Positions 1 through 12,430 of a stretch of DNA of 64,000 nucleotides are shown one piece after another. Position numbers and translations under genes: made by a program. Below the pieces are notes generated by a model. It was not told the origin of the DNA, ran no database searches, and saw nothing but the letters and a program-made list of their open reading frames with translations. Source of the stretch: Aureobasidium sp. EXF-3400 (Eukaryota; Ascomycota; Dothideomycetes; Dothideales; Saccotheciaceae); contig SWBL01000151.1 of assembly GCA_024195585.1 (NCBI GenBank), positions 1 through 64,000 of the forward strand. Reading direction: 5' to 3'. The number at the start of each line of letters is the position of its first letter. Within the stretch, counting starts at the first letter, position 1.

Positions 1-65
1 TTGCCGCTCTTCTCGGCGTTGTTGATGGCGTTAAGGGCATCGTTGAGGACGGAAGTCTTGACCAT
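1..65 (-). CDS. rps22: Small ribosomal subunit protein uS8 (S22/S15a), 5' part
   Basis: The minus strand from position 65 encodes the first 21 residues, beginning MVKTSVLNDALNAINN, which match the conserved N-terminus of eukaryotic uS8 (yeast Rps22, animal S15a). This small-subunit protein binds 18S rRNA. Only the start is inside the window; the gene continues beyond base 1. It is divergent to the TCTP gene at 695, and the two share a 629-bp promoter region. The assignment rests on a short but very conserved stretch. Confidence 0.82.
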   Translation of the reverse strand, partial: MVKTSVLNDALNAINNAEKSG

Positions 66-694
66 TTTTGCGGTTGTCGGGCGAGATTCTCAAACGGCGG
101 GGAAGTAGGCGGTAGGAGGTATCTGCTGGCGACGAAGAATACACGTTAGCCCTCGGAAGCCGTGAGCGCAAAGAGTGCCCTTCGGGATGCGCAAGCGGAT
201 GTGCGAGTGCGACCAGAAGGGTTCTTCAGCTCGTCCATGTCAGACGGGCCGTGTCGTTCTCTTGAGCAAGACAACGATGCGCCTGTCTGGGCTACCTGAA
301 GGGCACTCGATTGCTAGAGCGACAGCGCATGCCTGCGACTGCCATATGCGACAACTTACCTCACGAATTGGCGGCTGGAGTGATGGTAAAGAAACGACAG
401 AGGAGAGGGCAGCGTCCAGGGCAGGAGAGTTGAAGTTTTTGCAGGCGCGCGGTCAAGTCTTGGCGGTCAAATTCGGTCGGCACAGGCATTGTGGGGGTCC
501 AAGCTCGGCGCTTTCCCGATCGGGCTACGGCGTTCAGCGGCCAGACGCCAAATTTCTGCTGGACGTCTCCGCAACGAGGGAAGGAGCAAAGAACAAAAGC
601 ACCCCACCCCCGAAAGGCCCAGCAATCTTTTTCCTCGTTCAGTTGCTCCTTCCTCCTCTCCATCAACACCTCTTCAACCACAAACACCGCCAAT
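66..694. promoter_or_regulatory. Divergent promoter of uS8 and TCTP with pyrimidine-rich leader
   Basis: This 629-bp interval separates two translation-related genes transcribed outward. Just before the TCTP start, about 626-690, the plus strand is strongly pyrimidine-rich with several CTTCCTCC-like runs, resembling the polypyrimidine leaders of fungal ribosomal-protein genes. No convincing ORF is present; the overlapping open frames have no family resemblance. Co-regulation of the two genes is an inference from layout. Confidence 0.5.
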
Positions 695-1472
695 ATGCTG
701 ATCTACAAGGTGCGACTCTCCGACTGCTGGAAAGAGCTGCTGTCATTCGAGCTACTACAATTTTTCTCCTGCTGGAGCTCGAATCGCCGCTCTTCTTGAC
801 AGCTCAACCCCTCCCTGAGTCCTCGAACACACAGCTGACTCGACCCTATAGGATGTTATCACCGGAGACGAGATGATCTCGGACTCCTACGACCTCAAGC
901 TCATTGACGGTGTCGTCTACGAGGCTGACTGCGCCCGTATCACCGTTGGTGGTGACAACATCGGTATGCTCTTCCCGAATCCTCAACACCTTTCTCGACA
1001 TGGCCTCAGGGGCTAACATTCCTTCCTCCAGACATCGGTGCCAACCCCTCCGCCGAGGACGGTGGTGACGAGGGTGCCGACGATGCCACCACCTCTGTCA
1101 TCGACGTTGTCCACTCTTTCCGCCTCAACGAGACTTCCTTCGACAAGAAGTCCTACCTCGGCCACCTCAAGCAGTACATGAAGAAGGTCAAGGAGCACAT
1201 GAAGGCCAGAAACGCCTCTGACGAGGAGGTCAAGGAGTTCGAGACTGGTGCCTCTGCCTTCGCCAAGAAGATCGTCGGTGGCTTCAAGGACTGGGAGTTC
1301 TTCACCGGCGAGTCCATGGACCCCGACGGCATGGTCGTTCTCCTCAACTACCGCGAAGATGGCACTACCCCGTACGCTGTATTCTGTAAGGGCCCTTTCC
1401 TTCTTTTCTTCTTTTTCTTCTTGCTAACAAAAATTATCAGGGAAGCACGGTCTTTCGGAGATGAAGGTTTAA
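695..1472 (+). CDS. Translationally controlled tumor protein (TCTP) homologue
   Basis: Four exons (695-709, 852-963, 1032-1385, 1441-1472) join in frame to 170 residues, the normal TCTP length. The start [17 protein letters not shown], the central YEADC region, the helical hairpin around [11 protein letters not shown], and the C-terminal [11 protein letters not shown] are all diagnostic. TCTP is a conserved cytosolic growth- and stress-related protein that associates with translation factors. The first exon is only five codons. The last intron has a clear branch site (gctaac near 1423) and a long T/C run. A repeat mosaic begins about 320 bp beyond the stop and could lie in a long 3' UTR. Confidence 0.95.
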
Positions 1473-1794
1473 GCGATTCAAAAACGATTACGACAGGGCC
1501 TATACCCAGTGCTTTGCTACAACACAATGCCCTTACTCTTATGAAAATCAAAGATCCCATTTTCCGCACTCAAACACTTTTGTTCCATGTTCGCTGCAAT
1601 TTGTATACCCGTGATCGAGACTATGTAATTTCCATCGATTCCAAGTACATCCCTGATTTCCTCGCCAACATGGTTGTCTCAAACGAAGCATGTAATAAAT
1701 TGATCTTTTCTCACTGGCAGCCATCCGGGCAATTCGCCAACTCGGAGTAACGACCCATTAGGTATAGGAATCCAGATTCAAGTGGCAAGAGGCA

Positions 1795-2095
1795 ACCCAG
1801 CATGCAATCGAGGTTACCAGAAACGAACACTCGTTTCCAGCATAGCCATGTATTCTGGGACAAGCAATTCTCCCATACAAGACTGACAAGAAGAGTCTGG
1901 CAAGAACGAGCATTCGTTTTTAGGATGGTCTTGTGTGAAGCATCAAGCATGTTCTACGACCGGAATTGGTAAGAAGAGTCAATTGAAAGCGAACACTCGT
2001 TTCCAGCATGCTCCTGAGTGGAACACCAAGCATATTTTACGATCGAGATTTGTAAGAAGAGTCAGTTGGAAACGAACATTCGTTTTCAGCATGTG
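1795..2095. repeat. Repeat array A: degenerate 83-bp tandem units with a GAAACGA/TCGTTTC dyad
   Basis: Four degenerate units recur at exactly 83-bp spacing; the shared CGA of the core begins at 1824, 1907, 1990 and 2073. The best core is GAAACGA, four bases, TCGTTTC. Similarity extends beyond the core: units share an AAGAAGAGTC motif upstream of the next core and an AAGCAT-TTTTACGA-like stretch between cores. A partial unit seems to start near 1795. This is the first of five neighbouring arrays. Confidence 0.85.
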
Positions 2096-2166
2096 CGTGT
2101 GAGAAAACAAAGGTGTGCGTGTAACCCAGACCATAATGTAGCTATATCACATGCATCTAATTTGAC

Positions 2167-2396
2167 CATCAACTAGATTTAGTTGATGGAGGGATCACGT
2201 ACAAGACAACAAGGTCCACATCAACTAGATTTAGTTGATGGGAGGTTCGTTGTCAGAATTTCCCACAAGTCCTGACTTTTTCATCAACTAAATTTAGTTG
2301 ACGGAAGGGTCACGTCTCAGGCAATAATGCATGCGGTCGACTAGATTTAGTCGACATGAGCTCAACGTTGCTTCTCATCAACTAAATTCCAATGAT
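2167..2396. repeat. Repeat array B: CATCAACTA/TAGTTGATG inverted-repeat units
   Basis: Five cores begin at 2167, 2219, 2282, 2336 and 2376. The first two are perfect inverted repeats with 9-bp arms around GATT. The third has one arm mismatch. The fourth is GTCGACTA-gatt-TAGTCGAC, in which two base pairs changed on both arms together. The fifth keeps only the left arm. Spacing is 52, 63, about 53 and 41 bp, and some spacers share a GGATCACGT / GGGTCACGT stretch. Confidence 0.88.
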
Positions 2397-2464
2397 AGGA
2401 CGTCCACGTATATGATCATCATGACTTTGTACTCGCAAGAGCTTTGAACATTCTAAGTCAAATT

Positions 2465-2560
2465 GGCCAGTCCTAGGATCGGTAGAATCTGCTTGGACAA
2501 GACCGGCCAGTCCTAGGACCGTCCGATTCCGCCCAGAGGCGAGTGACCAGTCCTAGGACC
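2465..2560. repeat. Repeat array C: 40-bp units with AGTCCTAGGACC core
   Basis: Three copies of CCAGTCCTAGGA are spaced exactly 40 bp apart (TCCTAGGA at 2471, 2511 and 2551). In copies 2 and 3 the core GTCCTAGGAC is a perfect 10-bp palindrome; copy 1 has GTCCTAGGAT. Flanking bases between copies are much less similar than the cores. Confidence 0.85.
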
Positions 2561-2609
2561 TGCTATTTTCCCTCAAAAGAAGTTCATGGTCGGCCAATTT
2601 TGTCAAGTC

Positions 2610-2791
2610 ATTTTTTTCTTGTGCGGTACGGGAAAAAACATAACCAACTCATTTTCTTGTGCGGTACGAGAAAAAACGCACTCGAACCATTCTCTTGTGC
2701 CGTACGAGAAAAAACAGGTTCAAACAATTCTCTTGTGCGGTACGAGAGAAAACAAGTTCAAACCAGTTTCTTGTACCGTACGAAAAAAAAA
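2610..2791. repeat. Repeat array D: 38-bp units with TTCTTGTGCGGTACGAGAA core
   Basis: Five units recur at exactly 38-bp spacing (the GTGCGGTACG-type core begins at 2621, 2659, 2697, 2735 and 2773). Each has a T/C-rich left arm and an A/G-rich right arm that can pair over about nine positions with one G-U pair if transcribed. Because 38 is not a multiple of three, the same DNA motif is read in all three frames in turn, which creates overlapping open frames that are not genes. Confidence 0.88.
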
Positions 2792-2847
2792 GAGGTATAA
2801 GCGGCTTCACGAAGCAGTCTCAGAAAGATTACCAAACCATTCTCTAT

Positions 2848-3003
2848 CCTGGGTCAAGCAAAACAAGGGCAAAAAGTTGCTTAGTCCTGGACCAAGAAAA
2901 AGTGCTCAAAGGGCATACCTTGGTCCAGGACTAAAGAAAAACTGATCACAAGACTATCACTTGGTCCAGGACTAGAGAAAAGTTGCTCTACTCCTGGATC
3001 AAG
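2848..3003. repeat. Repeat array E: GTCC-A/T-GGAC units in alternating orientation
   Basis: Five related copies of CCTGGACCAAG or its reverse complement lie at 2848, 2886, 2919, 2960 and 2993. Copies 1, 2 and 5 read CCTGG-CAAG; copies 3 and 4 read CTTGGTCCAGG. The centre GTCC-N-GGAC is dyad symmetric and differs from array C only in the central base or bases. Each copy is followed by an A-rich run. Confidence 0.8.
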
Positions 3004-3375
3004 AAAAATCGAAGGTACTGGCTGCTAAAGGGTCAAGAAGCATCTGAGGAAGGCACGAGTATCCTCATGAACGCAGTTGCCCTTTTGGGCTAGTCTTGGC
3101 GCTCACTTGATGATCAAGTTGTCCGGCAAGAACCTTCCCATCGACCTTACCTCATCTTTTTTCTTTCTGCGCAATGTTAGTAACATCCTAATTAACAACG
3201 CTCTGATACCTGAAGCTTTTCTCTCAAGTGTCCGAGATCCAAGAGTTTCTCCGGCGTGCGCGCTTCTCTTCTTCCCTTTCTGCGCATCGTCAGGCGCACC
3301 TCGTCTGAAGGCAATTCAAGGTGAGACCAGCTCAATTCCTCCTTGACTTATTGTCCAGAGCTGACTTTGCACTAG
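3004..3375. other. Intergenic, upstream of the 771-aa ORF
   Basis: The repeat motifs stop at 3003. This stretch shows no further copies and no ORF with family resemblance. It includes a TC-rich tract near 3260-3280 before the next gene start, consistent with an ordinary fungal promoter and leader. Confidence 0.4.
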
Positions 3376-5691
3376 ATGTCGATCGGCGCCCCTCCTCCAT
3401 GGGATGCGATAACTCGTTGTCTTATGAATGCCATCAAAGACACATTCTACGACGATGTTGTTCTTCGAGACAGCTGCCAAAGCGCTCTGCAGGACTTCCT
3501 GGCTGCTAGAAGATCACATCAGGGGCAAGACTCAGGCTCCGCGTCCAGCCGTACATCTCGTCGTACAACATCCGAATGGATGTCTTGGGATAATGTCATC
3601 GATGACATTTGGGAGGATTCTCTTCTGAAGCTGCCCTCCATCCCTGGCCGCCCCAGGTCCCGCTTCGTCAAACCATCAGGTCCCTCCGAAGCCATCATGT
3701 TGATCGTATGGCATGTTCCCACGACGAACACCACGAAGTACAAGGAGTTTGGTGTGGTTGCTGACGGCTCAAACCCATCTCTGAGAAACATGGCAGTCAA
3801 GTTCGGCATGGAGCCCAAGCTCGACCCCATGAGCCAGAAACTGATGTGCATGGAGCACGTTCCCATCCGCTACTTCCACGACCCCAAGCGCGGAAACAAG
3901 CTGCCGTACGATGACCTCTCCCAGTCCGACATGGACATTCTGCTGCGTTACAAGCTCAAATTCTGGAACGCTTCGAAGGCATCGGTCGTCCTACTCCTTA
4001 GAAGGGAGAACACCCTGTGGTACAGAAAGACCTTTCCGAACTCGACCGCCATCAAGCTCTCAGAAGAGGTTGTCTACGGCAAGCCCCTGGAATTCTTCAT
4101 GGAGTGGGCATCAGATGGCACCCTCAAGAGGTTGGTGTTCAGCAGCCTGCATATGGAGGCTTTCTTCTGGCCCACTGGCAAGAGGCTCTCAAACCTTTAC
4201 GACGCAATTTGGAACATGGTAGCAGGGATCGCCAACTATCCGGTAGTCAACCACAAGCTTTTCATGCGTCTCTCCCGAGCTAAGGATATGGACTTTGACG
4301 ACAACTCTGTCACATTCGAAGCTTTGCAGAGCGGCACAAAGGATCTTGGTTTCGATGAGAAGCCTTGGGAGATTGCTGTTCGGATCCGGCGCGAAGAGAT
4401 CGAACGTGATATACACCTCCCCCTGGATGCACTACCTGACGTCCTGCAGAAGTGGTTGCAATCCACAGGTGGTCTTGATCCCCTTGCCCCTGACAGCCCC
4501 GTGCGCCAGTGTCTTCGAAGATTCGGTCGCAGATCCTACGAGAAGCAGGTCGCAGAGGGCAAAGCCAAGGGTGAGACCTACCAACCCCGAGGTCTCCTTC
4601 TGGGTCAGATGCTCAATGTTCTGTCAAACCACGCATGTCTTGTCACAGCCAGGGCCAACTCAATGTTGAAGGTCAAGGAGCGCGATGCACTGAAGACTCC
4701 AGAACAGCTTGCATTCTACGAAAAGCAACGTGCACGCGCTCGTTCCAGGGACCGACGCAGGGATGCTGGTGAGCTTGCCAGACGCCCAGGCGCTCCTGCA
4801 AAGTTCGCTACTGAGGAGGAGAGAGCCGAGAACAAGAAGGAGAACCTCAGGAAACGTGATCGACTGAACAAGGAGCGGAGAAAGGCTGGTCTCGTCAACG
4901 TTGCTCCCAAGGGGTTCCCTTTTCGCACTGCAGATGAGCCAATGACCGAGGCCGAACTAGCCTATCACGCTCGACAAGCTCTGATCTCCAAAGGTCGACC
5001 TGACACTGGCTTTGGTATGGGCTTCACCTCAGATACTCATGAAAGCAACATCGGTCAAGTGAGATGGAAGAAGCTTGCACCTGGACGTATACCCGAGAAG
5101 CCCACACCTCCGCCCCTGTCTGCCTTCGACCGCGAGAAGAGACAAAGAAGAAGTGAGCAGGACCGGAGGTACAGGGCACGTAGAGCAGCCGGTCAAGTTA
5201 TACTCCTACACAGACCAGATCCTCCAGAGGTGTCTGGCGCAGGAGAAGATGGACTTCAAGTCCCTGACACAAATCGTACAGATGGAGATCTCCTCGACCA
5301 TGCTGTCAGTCTGAGTCCATCCCTGAAAATCTCAAGCGACCCAAAGACAGCTCCAGCAGGTCCCAAGGTGTTGATCGAAAAGGCTCGGGAGATGTTGGCC
5401 GAACGTACCCTGATCCTTTACCCGGAGCAACTCACACCCGAAGAGCTTCTCGAGCTTCGTAAGGCCCAAAATGAGAAAACGAAGCAAAGCAAGAAGGAGA
5501 GTATGCAGAAGCCGCAAGCCAAGGTTAAGAAAGCTGAACGCCAGCGTCAATACAGAACACGCCAGAGTGCAGGTCTTGTCGGCAAGTCAGTAGCTGGCAA
5601 TGGTCGCAAATTCTCTCTGGGTACGCCTTCTGTTGAAGACGGAGGTCAAACTGAAGACGTTGAGATGATCGACCTTACCAACGACGACTGA
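3376..5691 (+). CDS. Unknown 771-aa basic protein with four RxRR-AG repeats and a SUMO-interaction-like tail
   Basis: This is one uninterrupted ORF, with a start at 3376 and no obvious introns. I do not recognise a catalytic domain. The first ~390 residues are globular-looking. After about residue 455 the protein is highly basic and carries four spaced copies of an arginine-rich motif followed by A-G and a hydrophobic residue (near residues 455, 494, 596 and 721; for example RQYRTRQSAGLVGK). The C-terminus ends in an acidic stretch with EMIDLTNDD, which resembles a SUMO-interacting motif. A nuclear, nucleic-acid-binding role is an inference from composition. It lies 0.8 kb upstream of the RdRP gene on the same strand. 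Confidence 0.8.
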   Translation: MSIGAPPPWDAITRCLMNAIKDTFYDDVVLRDSCQSALQDFLAARRSHQGQDSGSASSRTSRRTTSEWMSWDNVIDDIWEDSLLKLPSIPGRPRSRFVKPSGPSEAIMLIVWHVPTTNTTKYKEFGVVADGSNPSLRNMAVKFGMEPKLDPMSQKLMCMEHVPIRYFHDPKRGNKLPYDDLSQSDMDILLRYKLKFWNASKASVVLLLRRENTLWYRKTFPNSTAIKLSEEVVYGKPLEFFMEWASDGTLKRLVFSSLHMEAFFWPTGKRLSNLYDAIWNMVAGIANYPVVNHKLFMRLSRAKDMDFDDNSVTFEALQSGTKDLGFDEKPWEIAVRIRREEIERDIHLPLDALPDVLQKWLQSTGGLDPLAPDSPVRQCLRRFGRRSYEKQVAEGKAKGETYQPRGLLLGQMLNVLSNHACLVTARANSMLKVKERDALKTPEQLAFYEKQRARARSRDRRRDAGELARRPGAPAKFATEEERAENKKENLRKRDRLNKERRKAGLVNVAPKGFPFRTADEPMTEAELAYHARQALISKGRPDTGFGMGFTSDTHESNIGQVRWKKLAPGRIPEKPTPPPLSAFDREKRQRRSEQDRRYRARRAAGQVILLHRPDPPEVSGAGEDGLQVPDTNRTDGDLLDHAVSLSPSLKISSDPKTAPAGPKVLIEKAREMLAERTLILYPEQLTPEELLELRKAQNEKTKQSKKESMQKPQAKVKKAERQRQYRTRQSAGLVGKSVAGNGRKFSLGTPSVEDGGQTEDVEMIDLTNDD

Positions 5692-6448
5692 GCGGAGCAG
5701 GATGATGTTACGGGATGGGTGAGGTATTGCTATGTGAAGGATGGGATGTTGCTCGAAACACGAATTATGGCTTACGGGGATGTGGGACACAACTTATGAC
5801 ATGACAGTATGGGGTATACACGACGACATGGAACATGAAACATTAACGACAGGTAATGGCTTTCCATCAAGGAGGAATGGAACACATAACTTTTTCAGAC
5901 ATGCTATCGAGGTATGGAATTTATTTTGCCGTTTTGTGCGTCTTGCTCTTCGTCTACGTTCTACTCGACGTCTTTGTCAAAAAAGCATGGAGCTATCACA
6001 TGAAACAATATGGCTTTTCGCAGATGTTATTGAAATTCTCTGACACCATCGGTCCTCATCTGGATTCCAAACCTGCTAGGCTATGTTGATCTTTATGTCA
6101 CTGCAATGTTTTTCTAATGCTGTCTGAGCCTCGATTGTAGATATATTTCTTGGAGTTGGCGTTCAGGAGATAGACGACATTGGTGAACAGGGTGTTACCC
6201 CCAACGAGAAACACGACACGTCTGTTATGATTGGTCACTTTCACCTGGCGCTTAAGTGCGGCACGGACCGTCATAAAGATCGCAGTTCTGTCCCACTCGT
6301 TCCTCAGGCACACCCCCTTCTGCTTATCAACAACATTTTGGATCTCGTCGCACCAACTGACATTCTTTTGGCAACTTGAACATTGCAAAATCACATCCCT
6401 GACAATGCATTGAGCTCTTTAGTATTCCTTGCGCATTGATTTCTAGTC
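5692..6448. other. Intergenic between the 771-aa ORF and the RdRP gene
   Basis: A 757-bp gap holding the terminator region of the upstream gene and the promoter of the RdRP. A 77-codon ORF with a hydrophobic segment is listed separately as a weak candidate. Nothing else stands out. Confidence 0.4.
5856..6089 (+). CDS. Possible small single-pass membrane peptide
   Basis: A 77-codon ATG ORF with one strongly hydrophobic stretch (IYFAVLCVLLFVYVLLDVF, about residues 22-40) followed by lysines, as expected for a single membrane span. No homology is recognised, and it could equally be a chance ORF in the 3' region of the 771-aa gene. Codon composition does not settle it. Confidence 0.22.
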   Translation: MAFHQGGMEHITFSDMLSRYGIYFAVLCVLLFVYVLLDVFVKKAWSYHMKQYGFSQMLLKFSDTIGPHLDSKPARLC

Positions 6449-9400
6449 ATGGCTGCTTTGGGCGCTAGTCTCGGCAGATCCAACGGCGGCTCACCTGCGC
6501 CGACAACTCCCCGAGGCCAGGCAAGCAAGGAGATCAACACTATCATCGAATTGACTGCCCAGGAGTTTGGTTTACCCCTCAGGCCTCGAGTTGGAACATT
6601 CTCACCTAGCAAGCGACCCGATAATTACGCCGAGAGATGTGTCGATTCAATCAATTTTCTATTCTTCCATAACCGCATTGTTATGTACGATGTGATCAAT
6701 CAATTTCGCAAGGATAAAGCAGAGAACACCATCTTCGGAGACAATCTGAAGGAATTGTACTCTCGTTTGAGAGAAGCTGCCTACCTTGAGAAGCACAAAC
6801 CGCAGCTGGGAAAGCCGCAACTGGGCGGACCTGTGGTACAACAGGACACTCAGTTCAAGAAGCCCGCTCCGAAGCTTTCTTTGACACAGACAAAACTCAT
6901 TCCGACAATTAAGAAGCGCTCGGAGCCGCGTCCTGCCAAAGTAAAGGACACCGAGAACCAGAGTCCAAAGGAGAAACTACTGCCAACTGACCAATCCTTC
7001 CTTTTCGACCCTGGTCTAGCTTCTCGAGGTACCAAACGTCTTTCCGATCAAGATTCTTGCAGTTCTTCAAAGTATGTACGCCCCCAGAAGCAGCGGCGAC
7101 AGCAGCCTTCCCTTGACGACCATTTCTCATACAAGGTCAGCGCGACCAACCCCAGCTTTACTTCATCGCGTCAATGCAATGCGGCTTCAATCTATCCCAG
7201 ACAAGCGAACCAGAGTTTTGCTACGACTGTTGCTTCATTCGATGGTATATACGATAATTGTGATTCGTCAAGCGTCGATTACGGCGGAAATTGGGATCCT
7301 TCTCAAGCCGAACAACTTGATCAGCTCATGACGAGCTCCGAGCCACCTGAGTACGCTTGAAAGGGTTCAGGGGTAGTCGGGCAATCGCTAGACCAGTGCC
7401 AACACCTGAATGGTCGATCTCTTGACAACCTCTCTATCACACCCGCAGACACACATACAACAGCAGCGAAGGTTCAGATGCAACTCCAGGATTCTTTAGC
7501 TGCAAAAGTGCCAACCTCGAAATCCAAATCAGCTTCGTCAAAGGTCCCCGATCATAGACTTGTTCGCTCTCTGCCATCTGATGGGCTCTTTAGTTCGCCT
7601 ATGGCTATCAGTGTCAATCACTCATCTTTTTATCACCTCTGGGAAAGTTACAGACTTGCAGATGCTGCCGGAACACCTTTCAACTACTATGCAAATGAAG
7701 ATGAGCTATACACCAATATACCTGCTGGTGTTCAATTTCAAAGAACGCCTGCCTCGGTCTGGAAAGATAGGACTGATCCTACGCAAGCAGCCAATATCAT
7801 GCTCAAAGCCAATCTCGTCTTCGATGCCAGTCCATCTGCAGACAAGTTGTTGACACTCTCGTTGCAGCCACTCAAGACAGAGAGAGCCTGCATACTACAA
7901 AGACGCTTTGGGTCCAGCCGATTTTTATATGTTGAGGTACCGCAGATCCACACTTTCGGTGGAATTCATCTCAAAGGGCAACAAGATCTTCTCGAGTTAC
8001 GATACGAAGAATGGCTCTGCACTGAAAAGGGATTTTTCGGCCGCGTTTGGCGTGTGTTTCATGTTCAAGATGTCAAGAAGAAGAATAGCAAAGACAATCT
8101 GCCAAGTCAACGGCTAGTACTATTTGCTGTCGATGGACCTCGTTTGCAGAAGATTAGTCTTTTCGAAATGCTGAACTGGGCCATACCGTTTGCAAAGAAC
8201 GGTGACCAAGGGTTCTGCAAGGTATACGCTCGACTAGACTTGTTCCTCTCACAAACAATTCCCACAGTCAAGTTCACGCATAGGGAGGTCAAGTACGTCA
8301 AGGAGACTTTGGCAAACGGTGCTTCCGAGAATGAAGAATTTAATGACCCCGATATGAAATTTGAGTATCGTTCTGGCCCATCGAATGAGAAAGCTGTGAT
8401 GAACGATGGTTGCTCCCTGATCTCAGTTGGTGCAGCAAAAGAGCTCTGCGAAGAGCTTGGGATCAAGGGTGTTCGTCCTGTTGCTTTTCAAGGCCGCATC
8501 AGTGGCTGCAAAGGTGTGTGGATGATCAGCGCACCATACGATACGACTGAGCCAAAACACCGGAGAAAATGGATTCATATGACAGAAAGCCAACGCAAAG
8601 TTATACCAAGAGATGAGGACTTGACGAAAAGTTGTGAGCCTGATCGATGGTCATTCGAACTGGTTAAATTCACAAGTCCGCCAAAGCCATCAACGCTCAA
8701 CCTGGACTTCATACCCATCCTCAAAAATCGCCACGTGTCTAAGGACACACTCCAAGAAGTCATCGAAAGCCATTCAGAGATGGACTTCTCACCTTTCTTG
8801 GATTCCTTGACTGACCCACTAAGCTTGCGTCGCTGGTTGCACTCTGAATTCAGTGGTATGGAAGAGCTCAACCGCAAACTCGGCATCAAAGAAGCTGGCA
8901 ACTTTCCCTCTGACTGGGTCGAGAAATCCATCTTGTTGCTCGAATACGGTTTCAACCCGTTGACGAATCAGTATCTTGCGATGTGCATCCAACAAGTCGT
9001 CAAGCTATGGCTCTCCTCAGTCCGCTCCAAGCTCAAGATTCGTCTAGGTAAATCTGCCATGGCTCTGGGAGTTGCTGATCCAACCGGTTGTTTGAAGCCT
9101 GGCGAGATCCATATGGCCTTCTCGAAAACTTTTCGTGACGAAGCATCTGGCGAATATTGGTCACATCTCAAAGGCGAGGTGTTAGTCGCAAGACATCCTT
9201 CTCTTAGATGCTCCGACATACAGAAAGTCAGAGCTGTCTACAAGGAAGAGCTCAGTCATTTAACCGACGTTGTGGTGTTCCCGTCGAAAGGATGCGTTCC
9301 ACTTGCACACAAACTGCAAGGTGGCGACTATGACGGTGACACCTTTTGGCTATGTTGGGATCCGAGGTTAACAACAGATTTCAGAAATGCGCCTGCGCCA

Positions 9401-10402
9401 CTGGATGAACCGAAGCTGGATTACTACGGCATCAAGAAGGACATACGCAAGTTGAAAGAGGTCCTCGGCAGCGACAACAATGTTGATACATGGCTGTCTG
9501 AATGCTTCGGCTTCAAGTTGCAGGAAGATCTGTTGGGTAAAGTGACAAAGATGCATGGCAAATTGTCTTACAAGGAGAACTCAATCTCGTCTGAGAAAGT
9601 TGAGGATCTAGCTGGCTTGCATGATCTGGTCATTGACTCTGCAAAGAACAGTTACACCCTGACGCTGAACGATTTCGACAATTTTGTCAAGAAAAAACTC
9701 GGCATCACAGGAACCTTATACAAACCAGCATATGAGTCTTGGATGGATCCCACGATTGACAGTACAATCGGTCGGTTGAAGCCCAACCCGAAGCACATCA
9801 TCGACTTTCTTCTGTTCGAAATCGTCAACCCTCGTATCGAACAACTTACCAAGGACTGTCAACTAAAGCTAGCTGATGCTGAGAGCTATGATGAGGATCT
9901 GATCAAGCTCTATCAAAACCGATCGACCAACATTGATCCCATCGTTGTTGATGTTCTCAGACGCATGAATGCTGATCTGGCAAAAGTCAACTCCATCGGC
10001 AACTCAGCAGAGAAGATGACGAAAGAACTGTATAACCTGCAAGCCAACCGCGTTCTTGAGGCATATACTGCAGTCCAGCCTATTCACACCGAAGACCGTC
10101 TTGTGCAGGAATGGCTCACGAGAACAACACCAAACTCTTTCAATACATGGGAACTCATCAAAGCATCAGCATTCTACTTGGATAAGCACCAATTCCGGTC
10201 GACGTTGGCATTTTTAGTTGCTGGCAAAGAGCTTTGCCGTATCAAGGCTTCTCAGCCTGGAAGCAGAATTATTATCGAAGATATCCATGCGTTATACAAG
10301 CCGGAGAAAGAAAAGAAGGCAATCAACAAACGTCAAGCTCCATTGCTGATCACTGAGTCTTCTGAGTCGAGTGAGGCTGTATTTTTCGATGCGATCGAAT
10401 GA
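6449..10402 (+). CDS. QDE-1-type RNA-dependent RNA polymerase (RNA silencing)
   Basis: Two ORFs in the same frame, 6449-7360 and 7478-10402, are separated by a single TGA (7358-7360) and 39 sense codons. The second contains GGDYDGDTFWLCWD; its DYDGD is the catalytic signature of eukaryotic cell-encoded RdRPs (residues 617-621 counted from 7478). These enzymes make double-stranded RNA for quelling or siRNA pathways. The first ORF resembles the usual low-complexity N-terminal region of fungal RdRPs, including an SFATTV segment. Removing an intron from 7245 (GTATAT) to 7448 (CCCGCAG) drops the stop and gives 1249 residues, the expected size. The splice choice is not certain; a separate upstream gene is the alternative. 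Confidence 0.85.
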
Positions 10403-10894
10403 GAGGAAGAACAAGCCAGATAGAGTTACCAGGTTGGATATGTCGATAGATGTGGTTTGATGATTGTACGAATTTATGTTATGCCATGATTGATGAAGCA
10501 AGCCTCGTTTCTGCACCGCTTACAGCGCTTCTTGTATAATATACACTGTACAAGGTCTGATTCAGTTTTCCATGTTGGCAGGGATCAGCGTAGTCATTCG
10601 GCTCCAAGGGACAGCGAGGTCGCGAGGTTCGTATGCCGAAGGAGCGAGGGAACGTGGGGTGGTCAGCTCGGCATCGAGATACCGCGAGGCGGGGCACCGA
10701 AACGCGAGCATACCCCTGCCCAACAAGGATGCAATTGGTAGAGGAAAGTAAAGATGCTATAAGATGTGGCTTTCGCACCAATTTTTCCAATACTCTCTCA
10801 ATCTCTCAGAACCAGGCACAATCTACTTCTTCAGAAGCACTTGGAGAACATTGCAAAGAGTTTCTGTCAACTTATCTCGTCCATAACTATCACC
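10403..10894. other. Intergenic before the SDR gene
   Basis: A 492-bp gap. Open frames on both strands (for example 10479-10790 minus) have no family resemblance. The interval 10600-10720 is locally G-rich. I found no tRNA or repeat. Confidence 0.35.
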
Positions 10895-11827
10895 ATGAGT
10901 TCTTCCGACAAAAAGTCTCTTGCTGGCAAGGTCGCATTGGGTAAGTCACTAGCCCTACACAAACACTTACAAAACACAAACCCGCTGACCCACCACAACA
11001 AGTCACCGGCTCCAGTCGCGGAATCGGTGCCGCTATAGCCCTCCGTCTAGCCTCCCACGGCGCCGACGTGATCATAAACTACAACTCTTCAGCATCCGCC
11101 GCCGAAGAAGTCGCCAACCGCGCACGCAGCTTTGGCGTCCGAGCCTCTACCATCAAAGCAGATGTCTCCCGCGCCGAACAAATCAAAGCCATGTTCGAAA
11201 AGGCCATTGCAGAATTCAAAAGGCTTGATATCGTGATGAGCAATTCAGGAATCGAGCATTTTGGCGAGCTGGCAGAGATAATGCCAGAAGATATCGACCG
11301 TGTGTTGGGAGTCAACGTCAAAGCCCAATTTTTGGTTTCTCAACAGGCGTTCAAGTATCTTGGGGATAACGGGAGGTTGGTGTTGATTTCTTCCGTTTCT
11401 GCTGTTATGGTAGGTTTGACTTTTCGCTTTCTTCTTTCGGTTACACACACAGATGGTCTTTTGCCTGATTCTGACGCGATCACAGGGATTCCCCAACCAT
11501 GCCCTTTATTCAGCCTCCAAAGCCGCCATCCAAGGAATGGTAAAATCGCTAGCTTGGGACTTTGGCTCTCGCGGCATCACTGTCAATTGCATTGCCCCCG
11601 GAGGAATCAAAACAGACATGTACGCTGATGCGGCTGCCAAGTACATCCCTGGAGGCGATAAAATGAGTATCGAGGAGATTGATGCAAAGGTTTCTCAGTG
11701 GAGTCCTTTGGGGAGACCGGGATTTCCGGATGATATTGCTAGTGTTGTTGCGTTGTTGGCTAGTGACGAGGCTCGGTGGATTACTGGACAGACTATGCAT
11801 GTTAATGGGGGAACTTATATGGTTTGA
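10895..11827 (+). CDS. Short-chain dehydrogenase/reductase, tetra-/trihydroxynaphthalene or versicolorin reductase-like
   Basis: Three exons (10895-10940, 11003-11409, 11486-11827) give 264 residues, the classical SDR length. TGSSRGIG at residues 17-24 is the NADP(H)-binding loop, SS at 145-146 and Y159-x3-K163 form the catalytic set, and PGGIKTDMY plus WSPLGRPGFPDDIA are typical of the naphthol reductase / Ver-1 group that reduces polyhydroxynaphthalenes in melanin or polyketide pathways. No polyketide synthase or scytalone dehydratase lies in this window, so the actual pathway cannot be read from context. Confidence 0.88.
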
Positions 11828-12430
11828 GAAAGTTTTTAAGGGGTGATGAAATTCACCTTCTGTTGTTGCTAGAGAGAGTTCTGGGGTTGTTGCTAATTTG
11901 TTTAAAACTTCCTGTGATATCTTTTATTGATCTTTTGTGCATGAAACAGATTATTTGGTCTAAAGGATCGTTCAGCTTATATCGCATACATGCCACTGCT
12001 CAGTCTTCCGCGATTTCAGCTGTTGACTGCCTCTATGTAACTCGTTCTTTCGCCTGAATTGGCGCAGAGCCAGAAAACTATTAGGGTTCTGTAGTCAGAC
12101 CATTCTGGACCACTAAATATAGCATCTTCGCCGTTTCGACAACAACAACTTGGAATGCCTTAGGCAAACCAGCAAAACACTTTGTATCTCGTAACCGACG
12201 ACTAGAAATAACGGCATGATCTCGCGAAGCGAACACACTTCACATACGTCAATTGCGTTTGTCGGAAAATTGGTCTCACGTCAGAAGTAAAAAAGAACCA
12301 ATGCTGAGATTCTCATCCTAGTTATCCTCCTCTCGATCGGTTTGTTCCTTCCATTCTCCCATTCACAACTGTTGAGCAAAGAAACGTTTGCTAGCTATGA
12401 CTCATCAGACAGTTCTCGAACTCATTCGTA
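11828..12430. other. Intergenic, convergent gene ends
   Basis: A 603-bp region between the SDR stop and the stop of the small minus-strand gene at 12431. No ORF, repeat or RNA gene is evident. Confidence 0.35.

Follow-up and report, generated by a model that had tools for sequence, protein, structure and literature searches.

Between the end of a putative TCTP gene (near 1471) and an open reading frame of 771 aa (3376-5691), the 64,000-nucleotide stretch of DNA analysed here (the window) carries five consecutive tandem arrays, each with a dyad of its own. When the cores of these arrays were searched genome-wide, as the first-pass annotation had proposed, the mosaic was found to recur, the window array being one of four. 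The three further loci, on contigs C259, C331 and C346, are non-homologous and intergenic and hold two to five of the families each. We favour, at about an even chance, the reading that tandem duplication has multiplied long dyad sites which dimeric DNA-binding proteins would occupy, and that each locus would serve as a composite platform for such proteins.

Layout of the arrays and their neighbouring genes

The arrays, designated F1 to F5, and the genes around them are as follows.

860..1471, + strand: putative TCTP gene (so named in the first-pass annotation), 3′ part; 87% identical to C454:30711-31322
1821..2085, no strand: F1 array, four cores, consensus AAACGA-ACAC-TCGTTT, starts 1821, 1904, 1987 and 2070, period exactly 83 bp
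2168..2396, no strand: F2 array, five cores, consensus ATCAACTARATTTAGTTGAT, starts 2168, 2220, 2283, 2336 and 2377
2466..2563, no strand: F3 array, three cores, consensus ACCAGTCCTAGGACCGGT, period exactly 40 bp
2614..2788, no strand: F4 array, five cores, consensus TTTTCTTGTGCGGTACGAGAAAA, period exactly 38 bp
2840..3003, no strand: F5 array, four clear cores, consensus CTTAGTCCTGGACTAAG, starts 2880, 2919, 2960 and 2987
3376..5691, + strand: orphan ORF of 771 aa without a Pfam domain; ATG 373 bp past the last core
6449..10402, + strand: cellular RNA-dependent RNA polymerase (RdRP) gene; PF05183 in ORF 7478-10402

Five families in succession, each centred on a dyad, had been described at first reading, and this was confirmed, the arrays being ordered F1 to F5 across 1821-3003. 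The description of F5 as five units of about 36 bp held only approximately; the array exists, with four clear cores spaced at 39, 41 and 27 bp, two of them inverted so that both orientations occur, and by eye an extra degenerate copy is seen near 2845. The F2 cores are spaced at 52, 63, 53 and 41 bp, and the right half of the fifth is decayed. Tandem Repeats Finder, which had been suggested as a check, scored F4 alone in 1795-3003.

Comparable dyads in shuffled sequence of the same composition would have refuted the observation, and far fewer of them were obtained there. Seven palindromes of score >=7 were obtained in 1795-3003, against a mean of 0.55 and a maximum of 4 in 100 dinucleotide shuffles, and three of score >=9 against 0.03. 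F1 accounts for two of the seven and F2 for four, and the last one spans a pair of F5 copies; cores of F3 and F4 did not appear in this test even at score >=6, because the scoring penalises their mismatched pairs. When one hand-picked unit of 41-43 bases per family was compared with 20,000 base shuffles, the p values, uncorrected for the choice of unit, were 0.018 for F1, 0.0006 for F2, 0.019 for F3, 0.014 for F4 and 0.0065 for F5, so F3 and F4 are both dyads, though weaker ones than F2.

The 771-aa ORF stands directly downstream of the array, and the RdRP gene starts only at 6449. The product of the ORF shares 97% identity with one Aureobasidium melanogenum protein and 88% with another; three relatives were found, two of them named A. 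melanogenum, with 7,997 and 7,991 candidates scored. The ORF is single copy, its sole match in the genome being itself. The best PDB match had an E value of 0.34, and the AlphaFold model was unusable (mean pLDDT 37.6). Several basic RRxAG-like stretches were seen by eye in the C-terminal half. In the RdRP gene of the window an in-frame TGA is present at 7358-7360, after 303 codons, while the homeolog on C454 is open across the 863 codons read; it could be a small intron or mark a disrupted copy.

Near each array there is a gene or ORF start that faces away from it. On C259 this is a hydratase gene (PF22622), whose start was placed by eye near position 3159 of the stretch L013, about 0.9 kb off; on C346 it is an F-box-like start, recognised by eye and without Pfam support, and on C331 an ORF of 109 aa with no Pfam match. 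Such outward-facing starts may be due to chance in a gene-dense genome.

Recurrence of the cores and the homeologous contigs

The search covered the window's own assembly (53,448,430 bases, 717 contigs). Exact F2 cores were found at four loci only, on C151 (which holds the window), C259, C331 and C346. With mismatches allowed, F1 was present at all four loci, F4 at three (not C259), and F3 and F5 in the window and on C346. Outside the four loci, distinct matches, counted as lower bounds at the mismatch limits used and compared with the pattern read backwards on both strands, came to at least two for F2 (control 1+1), at least one for F4 (control 0+0), at least one for F1 (control 1+3) and at least seven for F3 (control 11+18), and there was none for F5 among the matches listed (control 1+2). 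In total 60 of 72 matches were kept as cores, with 21 in the window, 10 on C259, 9 on C331 and 20 on C346. It is unlikely that the array is an assembly artefact, as had been held possible, since the same cores stand on three other contigs with unrelated spacers.

Order and copy number vary between the four loci, and the spacers are unrelated. The window runs F1-F2-F3-F4-F5, C259 F2-F1-F2-F1-F2, C331 F4-F2-F1 and C346 F3-F5-F2-F4-F1-F2, with two to eight copies per family and locus. The pitch is nearly fixed in several arrays: 38-39 bp for F4 at three loci (38 and 38 on C331; 39, 39, 38 and 38 on C346), 39-40 bp for F3 at two (four copies on C346, spaced at 40, 39 and 40) and 39-41 bp for F5, which has two copies on C346, except for the one 27-bp step in the window. 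F2 keeps 40-43 bp in all three steps on C331 and in four of seven on C259; its spacing is wider ranging in the window (41-63 bp) and most of all on C346 (49-729 bp). The F1 spacing varies between loci (83; 232; 72; 61, 117 and 94 bp). A lone F1 core with spacer at C518:24375-24420 is 87% identical over 46 bp to positions 3265-3310 of the C331 stretch (L014), and may be a fifth, small site.

F2 and F4 cores gave no match in viral contigs, and F4 gave none in prokaryotic genome contigs; these results say little about fungi. In the literature on such structures and analogues, as represented by titles and the openings of abstracts, no description of such arrays was found.

According to a published study (PMC9535773), a haploid genome of A. 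melanogenum measures about 25 Mbp, and of 49 strains 30 were considered diploid and of hybrid origin. The window's assembly is probably a hybrid diploid as well, because it measures 53.4 Mb against that haploid size of ~25 Mbp and the adjacent protein matches A. melanogenum. When the putative homeologous contig C454 was read for 3.8 kb from the TCTP end, RdRP was reached after about 1 kb, and window positions 1-12000 aligned to that interval only at 1403-1582 and 6227-9032 (E<=1e-3), leaving one feature between them:

1583..6226, no strand: part of the TCTP-RdRP interval with no C454 match at E<=1e-3; contains the array and the 771-aa ORF

Neither the array nor the 771-aa ORF is present in the homeologous TCTP-RdRP interval on C454, and the divergence between the two intervals is too great to place an insertion boundary. 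Both flanks of the C259 locus align to C340, at query 94-3297 and 6580-9000, and 3.3 kb including the array faces only about 735 bp there. On C331, the stretch 358-6263 including the array gave four short matches only (46-65 bp, on C34, C696, C518 and a C346 core), with C510 and C66 aligning on either side of it. On C346 there was no long match before 7062, where C215 starts, the earlier ones being MITE-like copies, self matches and one core. No cores were found on the homeologous contigs C454, C340, C66, C510 and C215 among the matches listed, and from this absence any function would not be essential to the neighbouring genes. The suggestion that the array is a long TCTP 3′ UTR is contradicted, as the arrays adjoin other genes at three loci and none follows the homeologous TCTP on its 3′ side. 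A partnership with RdRP was likewise rejected; TCTP stands beside RdRP without an array on C454, which leaves ancestral synteny only.

Other repeats were observed in the same stretches. A MITE-like repeat lies at L013 3675-3896 (C259) and L015 5269-5444 (C346), and its ends alone were recognised by eye at L014 2675-2777 (C331); ends like GCTATCAAAATGCACAGT gave 323+338 matches genome-wide at <=3 mismatches, against 2+0 for the pattern read backwards. This repeat was rejected as a partner of the arrays, being genome-wide. On the C346 stretch (L015) there is also an inverted repeat at 6157-6448 (about 80 bp, 96% identity, arms 6157-6238 and 6369-6448), a tRNA match on the minus strand at 6210-6297 which overlaps its first arm, and a near-perfect palindrome at 6049-6088 with arms like TGATTTGAATGTGGTGT, seen by eye and also as an inverted self-match.

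The arrays might instead come from a transposon or some other selfish element, which would have spread to a few sites in one parental lineage; they would then be its cis-acting parts, either recognition arrays or palindromic elements of very short length. Non-homologous loci do share cores without sharing flanks, and most of the sequence around the arrays has no match on the homeologous contigs. The MITE-like repeat, or at least its ends, occurs near the arrays on C259, C331 and C346, and the 46-bp unit with the F1 core has its 87% match on C518. However, a Pfam scan of four ORFs or ORF pieces in the window and 11 at the other three loci, 15 in all, detected no transposase domain. When 6-9 kb from each locus were compared all against all, the cores and the MITE ends were recovered; the other matches, of 14-19 bp, stood at chance level or were in a tRNA-like stretch, and no terminal repeats were shared around the arrays. 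The fixed pitch inside several arrays, moreover, argues for tandem duplication and not for separate insertions. We regard a mobile origin as unlikely.

Apparent constraint on the cores, and the behaviour of their half-sites

Cores were compared pairwise within and between loci, using copies that had been recognised by likeness to the consensus, which inflates core conservation, and copy pairs that are not independent. Read with this limit, identity within and between loci was 0.80 and 0.80 for F1, 0.81 and 0.82 for F2, 0.85 and 0.82 for F3, 0.83 and 0.80 for F4, and 0.71 and 0.73 for F5. The 10-bp flanks on each side were 0.42-0.53 identical within an array; between loci they fell to 0.25-0.35 for F1-F4, which is near random, and to 0.46 for F5, which is A-rich. 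The earlier claim that the spacers are less conserved than the cores was thereby borne out across loci. Although the choice of copies by consensus inflates the conservation, it does not readily explain why core identity is the same within and between loci.

For an estimate of age, four-fold sites of RdRP were compared between the homeologs, and 47/97 and 82/167 differed. The flank divergence within arrays (0.47-0.58) is close to this, so the spacers of one array stand about as far apart from each other as the two homeologs do. The cores diverged by 0.15-0.20 within loci (F5 0.29), and for F1-F4 this is about a quarter of the spacer divergence after Jukes-Cantor correction; F5 is less clear. 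Equal core identity within and between loci, together with decayed flanks, makes the cores look old and constrained.

It had been suggested that some process repeatedly amplifies palindromes, and ordinary minisatellites could arise neutrally in this way if palindromes caused template switching or slippage during replication, with gene conversion keeping the cores alike. The relatedness of spacers within arrays (0.42-0.53) is what tandem duplication predicts, and the loci are intergenic. Neutral amplification alone, however, does not explain cores that match across loci with spacers that do not; core and spacer would be expected to diverge alike, and among these copies, chosen by consensus likeness, they did not. 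The recurrence of unrelated core families together would further need selection or repeated core-only transfer, and a purely neutral account appears distinctly unlikely to us. A CRISPR-like arrangement, with unrelated spacers inside an array, does not describe the loci either, the F1-F4 flanks being 0.42-0.53 identical within arrays against 0.25-0.35 between loci.

Whether each core acts as a hairpin of one transcript, that is, whether the arrays form a structured non-coding RNA family, was addressed through the two halves of the cores. Among 570 core pair cells, 453 were unchanged, 103 had a one-sided change, 6 a compensated change and 8 a double change without pairing. The 6 compensated changes, out of 117 changed cells, compare with 3.7 by permutation (p 0.13), and Watson-Crick pairs filled 444/570 cells against 445.4 (p 0.65), so that the excess of compensatory changes expected of a structured RNA was not seen over these cells. 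By family, the paired cells were 68 vs 74.4 for F1, 181 vs 176.9 for F2 (p 0.084), 49 vs 48.7 for F3, 112 vs 109.4 for F4 (p 0.14) and 34 vs 36.0 for F5. The half-sites vary independently, with no detectable covariation, F2 alone leaning the other way. Selection for hairpins would give paired changes, and since the changes are mostly one-sided, hairpin RNA is disfavoured.

The mismatches and flanks gave a similar picture. On the + strand, G.T numbered 51 vs 46 A.C over all families, hence no overall excess of G.U on one strand; F4 (17 to 6) and F2 (19 to 11) lean to the + strand, whereas F3 (2 to 7) and F1 (7 to 16, 13 of them in the unpaired centre) lean to the - strand. Flank complementarity at offsets 1-4, pooled at 99 pairs vs about 69, was rejected as a signal, as it was gone when the flanks were permuted within families (99 vs 95.7, p 0.32), leaving no covariation. 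In favour of an RNA, the predicted fold of 986 nt was more stable than shuffles (z -14.2 on the + strand and -5.9 on the - strand, 20 shuffles each), and with the pairing span limited to 60 the + strand had the lower energy in seven of nine segments. Any palindrome folds, however, and the folding was strong on both strands. No Rfam family reached the gathering score in the window, and in the three 9-kb loci a tRNA alone did. Of the readings first offered for the array, a structured RNA is thus disfavoured, and we hold it to be very improbable in spite of the slight over-pairing of F2 and its wobble bias shared with F4.

The centre of F1 is largely conserved and does not pair (AYAC, in either orientation, in 9/12 copies), which may be as in a protein site. 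The spacings of F1 and F2 were also compared with multiples of about 10.4-10.5 bp, and 25 distances gave a mean cosine of 0.69; with near-equal spacings merged, 13 distances remained (p 0.022). Taken by set, p was 0.039 for F1 alone, 0.10 for F2 alone and 0.11 for all families, and the 38-bp pitch of F4 amounts to 3.6 turns, which is off phase. A weak preference of F1 and F2 for whole helical turns is suggestive only.

RIP mutation was considered and rejected for the arrays. Their TpA/ApT ratio is 0.75-1.15 and their (CA+TG)/(AC+GT) ratio 1.06-1.18, against 0.61 and 1.30 in window 6001-64000; the shift is in the direction of RIP, is not strong and may come partly from lower G+C.

A proposed platform of dyad sites, its analogues and its meaning

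Among the first readings, sites for dimeric proteins fit best, with cores conserved across loci, half-sites that vary independently and no significant compensatory excess. According to the platform model, each locus would be a set of dyad sites of 16-23 bp with up to five specificities, each site probably holding a dimer whose two subunits take one half-site each. Tandem duplication, often in units of close to 40 bp, would have raised the number of sites, after which the spacers drifted while selection kept the sites, and the loci would thus come to share sites and not spacers. We infer from this pattern that proteins bind, that they do so as dimers and that several bound copies matter; the output would be local and would concern the genes nearby, some of them lineage-specific, through their chromatin or transcription. 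The 771-aa ORF was considered as a source of the array's protein, which it may or may not be. Sites of 16-23 bp are long for fungal regulators, five specificities in one platform would be unusual, and the slight over-pairing of F2 (181 vs 176.9, p 0.084) leans to hairpins. As a bolder version, which we rate as a long shot, several (up to five) dimeric proteins might co-assemble on the few dispersed arrays as a nucleoprotein hub, serving a selfish element or organising chromosome contacts or silencing, in one Aureobasidium lineage and with no counterpart in the sister subgenome.

Several known systems resemble the platform in part. The homologous regions (hrs) of baculoviruses are imperfect palindromes of about 30 bp in tandem units at dispersed loci, bound by a dimeric protein. 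The fungal arrays are like them in having imperfect palindromes in tandem units at several dispersed loci, but they are in a nuclear genome and combine several core families per locus where hrs have one, and no viral genes were noticed among the ORFs scanned against Pfam. In CENP-B box satellites a short protein-binding box is kept and the rest of the repeat unit diverges; the fungal arrays, in contrast, are very small (2-8 copies), have five dyad boxes and lie between genes. Clusters of transcription-factor sites in promoters likewise hold several copies of several dyad sites, intergenic and near gene starts, whereas the fungal sites are long and often stand in tandem with a spacing of about 38-43 bp, and elsewhere in the genome their matches, at the mismatch limits used, are close to the number expected by chance. 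Bacterial BIMEs are mosaic arrangements of palindromes. The REP elements are short extragenic palindromes in several families (PMC3733652). Unlike these high-copy elements, the fungal arrays occupy few loci in a eukaryote and keep a fixed pitch in several arrays, and no associated transposase was seen by Pfam in the 15 ORFs or pieces.

To our knowledge, neither ordinary minisatellites nor transposons show such a pattern, in which long dyads of unrelated sequence recur in company at a few loci, their cores constrained and their spacers saturated. The dispersed set of arrays is larger than the single-locus observation first made. The apparent hybrid diploid, without listed homeologous sites, would offer a built-in control, since the two alleles share a nucleus and could be compared there for their expression, chromatin and binding. 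Should proteins bind, probes of 16-23 bp would be specific enough to fish them out directly.
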